From positions 1 through 64,000 of the forward strand of contig JAGBSO010000029.1 of the NCBI GenBank assembly GCA_017631795.1: 64,000 nucleotides of DNA. Reading direction: 5' to 3'. Of the stretch, positions 50,356 to 51,500 are shown piece after piece. The notes under the pieces were generated by a model. The model ran no database searches. It was given only the letters and a program-made list of their open reading frames with translations, and was not told the origin of the DNA. The number at the start of each line of letters is the position of its first letter. The first letter of the stretch is position 1. This stretch comes from Clostridia bacterium. GTDB lineage: Bacteria > Bacillota > Clostridia > Oscillospirales > Acutalibacteraceae. The position numbers were made by a program, and so were the translations under genes.

Positions 50356-50384
50356 TTGACAAATCAGATTCAAAGTTATAGAAT
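50356..50384 (+). promoter_or_regulatory. corA promoter
   Basis: TTGACA (50356-50361) and TAGAAT (50379-50384), 17-nt spacer. It gives a leader of about 175 nt before the corA start codon. Confidence 0.8.
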
Positions 50385-50408: not shown

Positions 50409-50553
50409 TTTTATTTATTCAAAGGACGTGATTCTTAATGGTTCCTGACGCGTGTGCGGAAACCGGAATACCCCCCAAACGAAGAATCGCTGAATAAAAC
50501 AAAACCTTGAACCTTTAGCTTTTCACGGCTTTGTTTTGTTCGGCCGTGAAAGG
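50409..50553 (+). promoter_or_regulatory. Structured corA leader, candidate riboswitch
   Basis: The leader folds into stacked helices: P1 TTTATTCA/TGAATAAA (50414-50421, 50491-50498), P2 GATTCTT/AAGAATC (50430-50436, 50482-50488), P3 GGTTCC/GGAAACC (50440-50445, 50458-50464), with asymmetric internal loops. A second domain, CTTTTCACGGC/GCCGTGAAAGG (50519-50529, 50543-50553), traps the AAAGG ribosome binding site. The loop of this hairpin (GTTTTGTT, 50533-50540) is exactly complementary to AACAAAAC (50498-50505). This looks like an aptamer plus a translational switch. It does not fit the M-box or yybP-ykoY motifs as I know them. Confidence 0.65.
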
Positions 50554-50564
50554 ATTTGATAATA

Positions 50565-51500
50565 ATGACCAACTGTTACATCACAAGAAACAATTACCTT
50601 GAGGAATTAACAGGACCCGAACCCGGTTGCTGGGTCAACCTTGTTGCACCCACAGATTCGGAAATCAATCGTATTTCAAACAAATACAATCTCGATATTG
50701 ATGCGCTTAAAGCTGCTCTTGACGCCGATGAGCGTTCACGTATCGAACTTGAAGACAACTACACAATGATCCTTGTAAATATCCCCACAATCGAAACTGA
50801 AATCGAGACTGAGCTTTACAGCACAATCCCCCTTTCAATCATTGTTGTTGACGATGCTGTTATTACAGTATGCAGTGAGGATACTCCCATTCTCAAACAG
50901 TTTTCAAACGGCAAAGTAAAAGATTTTTACAGCAACATGAAATCACGTTTCATTCTGCAGATACTTTACAAGACATCATCACTTTTCCTGACTTATCTTC
51001 GTCATATCGACAGAAAAAGTGAAAATGTTGAAAACGAACTTCACAAATCACAGAGAAACAAAGAGCTTATTGAGCTTCTGAAACTCGAAAAGTCACTTGT
51101 TTACTTCACAACATCGCTCCGTTCAAACGAAGCAATACTTGAAAAAATGCTCCGTCTTGAAATTATCAAGAAATATCCTGAAGATATCGACCTGCTTGAA
51201 GACGTTATCGTTGAAAACAAACAGGCTATCGAAATGGCAAACATCTACTCAGGTATTTTAAGCGGTACAATGGATGCTTTCGCATCAGTTATTTCAAACA
51301 ACCTCAACATCGTAATGAAAGTGCTTTCAGTTATCACAATCGTGCTTTCAATCCCCACATTGATATTCAGCGCATTCGGTATGAATCTCAATCTTCCCTT
51401 TGCAGAAAATCCGTTGGGCTTCCTTATAGTTGTTGTAGGTGCACTTGTCATCTCAGTCACTGCGATGATTGTTTTCATGAAAAGTAAAATGCTGAAATAA
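50565..51500 (+). CDS. corA: CorA-family magnesium/divalent metal transporter
   Basis: The 311-residue protein has a large N-terminal cytoplasmic funnel domain, a long helix (about 130-240) and two C-terminal membrane helices (about 248-268 and 284-305) with the selectivity motif GMN in SAFGMNLNLPFAENP. CorA brings Mg(II) (or Co(II), Ni(II)) into the cell. The ATG at 50565 is preferred over an upstream TTG; its ribosome binding site lies in a hairpin of the leader, so translation control is probable. A terminator follows. Confidence 0.95.
   Translation: MTNCYITRNNYLEELTGPEPGCWVNLVAPTDSEINRISNKYNLDIDALKAALDADERSRIELEDNYTMILVNIPTIETEIETELYSTIPLSIIVVDDAVITVCSEDTPILKQFSNGKVKDFYSNMKSRFILQILYKTSSLFLTYLRHIDRKSENVENELHKSQRNKELIELLKLEKSLVYFTTSLRSNEAILEKMLRLEIIKKYPEDIDLLEDVIVENKQAIEMANIYSGILSGTMDAFASVISNNLNIVMKVLSVITIVLSIPTLIFSAFGMNLNLPFAENPLGFLIVVVGALVISVTAMIVFMKSKMLK

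Follow-up and report, generated by a model that had tools for sequence, protein, structure and literature searches.

What might sense a metal, and what might execute a switch, in the leader of a clostridial corA gene? The gene belongs to a gut bacterium and lies in the 64,000-nucleotide stretch of DNA analysed here (the window), and its product was identified by profile search (Pfam CorA, E = 3e-55). The leader measures about 175 nt from promoter to corA, and hexamers similar to those of the promoter are visible in the sequences of related species. A DUF1846 gene lies upstream on the opposite strand. The leader sequence is present as a single copy in its own genome, and was recovered from each of the nine congeneric genomes with an identified CorA. 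No intrinsic-terminator-like site was found in the leader, which favours translational control. An initial annotation had proposed a metal-related riboswitch at this position, and it was right to see a regulatory, metal-related switch that conceals the corA ribosome binding site and has a competing pairing. Its view of the sensor fared less well.

The proposed sensor was an RNA aptamer built as a compact three-helix domain. When the leaders of nine congeneric species were compared, the outer helix was paired in only 35% of cells and the whole domain in 63%. Two-sided changes were absent, and the model did not outperform column shuffles. The covariation check on homologous leaders that the initial annotation itself had suggested thus found none in the aptamer helices. 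The internal loops that it had singled out as conserved are indeed conserved, but they have another identity: the ‘AAGGACGT loop’ is a Shine-Dalgarno (SD) sequence, and ‘ACCCCCCAAACG’ comprises the codons for I-P-P-K-R of a short open reading frame (ORF) that had been overlooked. The second helix of the model is fairly well kept (86%), and pairs the start region of this ORF with its codons 15–17, so it could modulate initiation at the upstream ORF (uORF). A search with 4227 Rfam models gave no match for the leader at gathering score, and raising the threshold to E = 10 returned chance matches only, which agrees with the earlier judgement that the sequence is not an M-box, yybP-ykoY, NiCo or fluoride motif. 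A further 20 corA loci gave no Rfam match either. A riboswitch that binds Mg2+, Co2+ or Ni2+ directly, with the ORF merely incidental, would suit the gene context, the alternative structures described below and the folding of the leader relative to shuffles (z = −2.35), but with unconserved aptamer helices, conservation that tracks codons and a peptide motif that other clades share even though their leader RNA sequence differs, we consider it very improbable. A leader peptide translated from this region is the most likely sensor.

The sequence AAGGACGTGATTCTTA-ATG opens a 19-codon frame with its stop codon at 50495–50497, which in the window genus lies 67 nt upstream of corA, so that an SD-preceded short ORF stands between promoter and Mg2+ transporter gene, as in leaders of the MgtL type. 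Among nine congeneric species the ORF has zero indels, an invariant stop and a pooled pN/pS of 0.40. Residues M1, P3, D4, P12, P13, R16, A18 and E19 are invariant, and synonymous changes are seen at the invariant Pro and Asp codons (CCT/CCC; GAC/GAT; CCC/CCT/CCG/CCA). This codon-type conservation shows that the supposed aptamer region is a short coding ORF, although part of the nucleotide conservation at its 3′ end is due to arm a (Table 1) and not to the peptide. The N-terminus is rich in acidic residues and proline in the genus: P3 and D4 never vary, and E or D occupies position 2 in five of the nine species. Related congeners encode MEPDSYP...PPKRR, with leader peptides such as MEPDSYPGTNVPPKRRNAE and MEPDSYPEPGLPPKRRIAE. 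The window copy and its three closest relatives instead carry V2 and A5, which makes the destabilising motif weaker in these peptides.

Table 1 Features of the corA locus in the window.
Feature	Position	Strand	Description
Sigma-70-like promoter of corA	50356..50384	+	TTGACA at 50356, 17 nt spacer, TAGAAT at 50379–50384; 11 of 12 consensus matches
Shine-Dalgarno AAGGA of leader ORF	50422..50426	+	Invariant in 9/9 congeners; lies in the ‘AAGGACGT loop’ of the initial annotation
Leader-peptide ORF	50438..50497	+	19 codons, MVPDACAETGIPPKRRIAE; stop and length identical across 9 species; pN/pS 0.40
Pro12-Pro13 codons	50471..50476	+	Conserved in genus; possible EF-P-dependent pause
Arm a	50489..50503	+	Covers the two final sense codons, the stop and 6 nt of the ORF region (GCTGAATAAAACAAA); partner of arm c
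Arm b, anti-Shine-Dalgarno strand	50519..50529	+	CTTTTCACGGC; pairs with arm d
Arm c	50530..50544	+	Loop of anti-SD hairpin plus the start of its 3′ strand; partner of arm a
Arm d	50543..50553	+	3′ strand of hairpin closing the corA SD; pairs with arm b
corA Shine-Dalgarno AAAGGA	50549..50554	+	About 10 nt before ATG; invariant in 9/9 congeners
corA	50565..51500	+	ATG at 50565, stop at 51500; sole CorA-family gene found in genome; no MgtE found

Two helices in the leader are conserved among the nine congeners. The hairpin that had been placed over the corA ribosome binding site is confirmed as helix b:d, which is paired in 99% of cells; five of its pairs vary, on one side only. The complementarity noted between the loop of this hairpin and the bases following the first domain also holds, and extends from 8 bp to the 15 bp of helix a:c, paired in 98.5% of cells. 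In a control where the partners were slid by 1–3 bases, pairing fell to 33–58%. Covariation is limited to a single pair of a:c with a two-sided change (A-U to U-G, in two species), the changes in b:d being one-sided only. Helix a:c takes in the stop codon of the ORF and draws on the loop of b:d. The two helices compete, and it is b:d that closes the corA SD.

The influence of translation on this competition was modelled by masked folding, in which leaders were folded with the ribosome footprint kept unpaired, and 200 dinucleotide shuffles served as the null. With a ribosome placed near codon 4, the corA SD was predicted to be mostly open in seven of nine species (0.52–0.78), while a ribosome at the stop codon left it closed in all nine (0.00–0.26). 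The difference between open and closed states exceeded that of at least 96% of the shuffles in 7/9 species, the exceptions being one leader with no switch (L007) and one with a weak switch (L009). These modelled states imply that corA should be off when the ORF is translated to its end and on when it is not; in about seven of nine congeners, completion is predicted to close the corA SD and early drop-off to open it. The direction of the switch in the window genus is thus a prediction of the folding model.

Our best reading of the locus is a leader peptide resembling MgtL, CorL and MgtQ, and novel for Clostridia, on which ribosomes would abort at low Mg2+ and thereby induce corA. We assign a probability of roughly 0.6 to the leader being such an attenuator, acting on corA translation with induction at low Mg2+. 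A ribosome would initiate at position 50438 and, with ample Mg2+, would reach the stop codon and cover arm a, leaving b to fold with d so that the corA SD is closed and the gene is off. At low intracellular Mg2+, the early Pro and Asp (or Glu) residues of the nascent peptide would destabilise the ribosome, or it might pause at Pro-Pro; with the stop not reached, arm a would be free to pair with c, the anti-SD hairpin would be broken and corA would be translated. We infer the abort or pause in response to Mg2+, as well as switching in vivo.

This scheme has parallels in enterobacteria. In E. coli MgtL, an EPDP stretch destabilises ribosomes at low Mg2+ and so induces mgtA, and when Glu2 was changed to Gln and Asp4 to Asn, expression of an mgtA fusion was not detected (PMC11282234). 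The output of mgtL is Rho-dependent termination (PMC11282234, PMC11552253). Like the clostridial leader, mgtL (the mgtA leader of E. coli and Salmonella) is a short ORF with an SD of its own, placed ahead of a gene for Mg2+ transport, its peptide begins M-[DE]-P-D and continues with Pro and an Arg-rich stretch (compare the congener peptide MEPDSYPGTNVPPKRRNAE), and ribosome progress decides between alternative RNA structures. It differs in that it precedes a P-type ATPase gene, whereas the gene here is a clostridial CorA, and in using Rho where SD sequestration is predicted here; no Rfam match links the mgtL RNA to the clostridial leader. The corL ORF of E. coli and Salmonella precedes the same gene, corA, and in E. 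coli its translation is inversely related to corA expression in a Mg2+-responsive manner, but unlike the clostridial peptide it conserves just one Pro, contains few acidic residues and acts through Rho (PMC11552253). The closest match to the output predicted here is Salmonella mgtQ, an ORF between mgtC and mgtB, where translation of a tiny ORF is cut short by Asp/Glu codons, mutually exclusive stem-loops swap and the SD in front of a Mg2+ transporter gene is exposed (PMC8092293). That ORF differs in having 8 codons, in lying within an operon, in not needing its Pro codon (no acid-Pro signature is required) and in belonging to another phylum. The leader probably works like mgtQ and mgtL, an assignment by function and not by descent. 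The ‘corA motif’ of the Breaker group was reported only in Gammaproteobacteria (PMC6429828). Within the literature searched, which was limited to non-subscription papers, a readout of Mg2+ through ribosomes destabilised on an acid-Pro leader peptide is described for enterobacterial mgtL, mgtQ and possibly corL, and no clostridial precedent for such a leader peptide was found there.

The acid-Pro signature extends well beyond the window genus. We compiled 193 non-redundant clostridial corA loci, among which related loci are not independent, and scored uORFs that were SD-preceded, 7–60 codons long and within 260 nt, the strict pattern being an M..[DE]P start. This strict pattern (M-x-x-[D/E]-P) was found at 92 of the 193 corA loci, compared with 0.9 expected from dinucleotide shuffles and none among 141 control genes. 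These controls, taken from the window and 20 other stretches, form a small set that includes some genes at contig ends. A looser acid/proline pattern was found at 129 loci, compared with 2.8 in shuffles and 1/141 control genes. The patterns had been shaped on early loci, so 60 loci fetched after they were set serve as a check, and these gave 50 loose and 47 strict matches. Positive loci occur in 13 of the 16 families sampled within the clostridial order. Half of a mixed genome-contig set that includes Blautia and Anaerocolumna was positive, as were 8 of the 29 best-matching loci of a phylum-wide sample. In the loose-pattern set the uORFs have a median length of 24 codons and most frequently start with GTG (72/129), and the wider consensus reads M-[S/E/D/N/K]-[P/A/S/G]-[D/E/G]-P(93%)-[G/S/L/C]-[S/G/P]-R-R. 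As all four CCN codons are used for the position-5 Pro and the peptides number 128 distinct sequences, it is the peptide on which selection acts.

An unbiased DNA pattern, GGAGG-RTG-x-[PA]-[DE]-P, was also applied to 295 genomes, but was rejected as too degenerate, with control matches in many genomes; among the loci inspected from that scan, the convincing uORFs were those before corA.

The same data bear on what is sensed. In the genus, Pro-Pro at residues 12–13 is followed by K/E-R/Q-R; both prolines are genus-invariant, but the pair is not characteristic of the wider set. It is a possible second, EF-P-linked input. In masked folding, a ribosome paused there likewise left arm a free, with the SD predicted to be open in most congeners. 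A switch that responds to proline or arginine tRNA charging, or to EF-P-dependent pausing at Pro-Pro, with corA as the target since translation rate and Mg2+ demand are linked, would therefore account for these prolines, for the early Pro5 and for the Arg-rich residues 8–9 of the wider set. Yet what the wider set shares is the acid-Pro motif and not Pro-Pro, corA encodes a Mg2+ transporter, and the mgtE genes of the same order are without such leaders (1/33 matching the looser pattern), which argues against a generic device. We regard an input other than Mg2+ as unlikely, and favour a response to low Mg2+.

Alternative RNA structures coupled to translation of the ORF, as in MgtL-type leaders, were found in the genus but are not general in the wider class. 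Masked folding of 76 wider loci with the uORF end clear of the SD gave no trend, 17 loci pointing one way and 15 the opposite way, similar to shuffles, and an SD switch common to all clostridial corA uORFs is thus unsupported. In the wider set, 52 of 128 loci have a uORF that terminates at or close to the corA SD, and nine uORFs overlap corA. These arrangements would be expected if the uORF merely delivered ribosomes to corA or kept the leader open, with no sensing at all. Such constitutive coupling leaves the acid-Pro N-terminus, and its absence before mgtE, unexplained, and in the genus the distance of the stop from corA and the predicted closure of the SD by finished translation both speak against it; we judge it improbable. 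The output in the wider set may be coupling, occlusion, Rho or another step. At L013, L027, L028, L037, L149, L172, L179 and similar loci, the acid-Pro uORF extends beyond the start codon of corA in a different frame and would terminate inside corA, so a different output mechanism is likely.

That the acid-Pro N-terminus recurs before corA across 13 families of a single clostridial order, and in other Clostridia as well, suggests a general bacterial readout of Mg2+. We put at even odds the broader proposal that Clostridia sense Mg2+ for corA via widespread acid-Pro leader peptides, M-[S/D/E/N/K]-[P/A/S/G]-[D/E/G]-P-x-x-R-R, in which intrinsic ribosome destabilisation would be the sensor and outputs would be lineage-specific. 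Such peptides could be of ancient origin or could have reinvented MgtL independently, and would take the place of the M-box in genomes that rely mainly on CorA for Mg2+ import. The approximately 130 natural variants are available for testing which residues matter, and the locus is an example of a leader peptide masquerading as a candidate riboswitch.

The M-box (ykoK, RF00380) was found in 0/11 congeneric genomes, and none was found in the corA leader. Nine of these genomes have CorA without MgtE and two (G002 and G010) have MgtE without CorA, the latter pair being incomplete assemblies (86% and 70%). CorA and MgtE appear mutually exclusive in the window genus. Among the 33 mgtE loci, no acid-Pro leader peptides were found save one possible case, at the mgtE of G002 (L299), where a GTG-start, SD-preceded ORF encoding MDDPWRRDASGDLAEADEDPGSCPVFTS runs from about 224 to 137 nt upstream of the gene. 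Finally, at L048, L059, L063, L071, L076 and other Lachnospiraceae-type loci, corA has no uORF and a promoter-like TTGACA...TATAAT lies near the gene, an arrangement that would fit loss of the leader.
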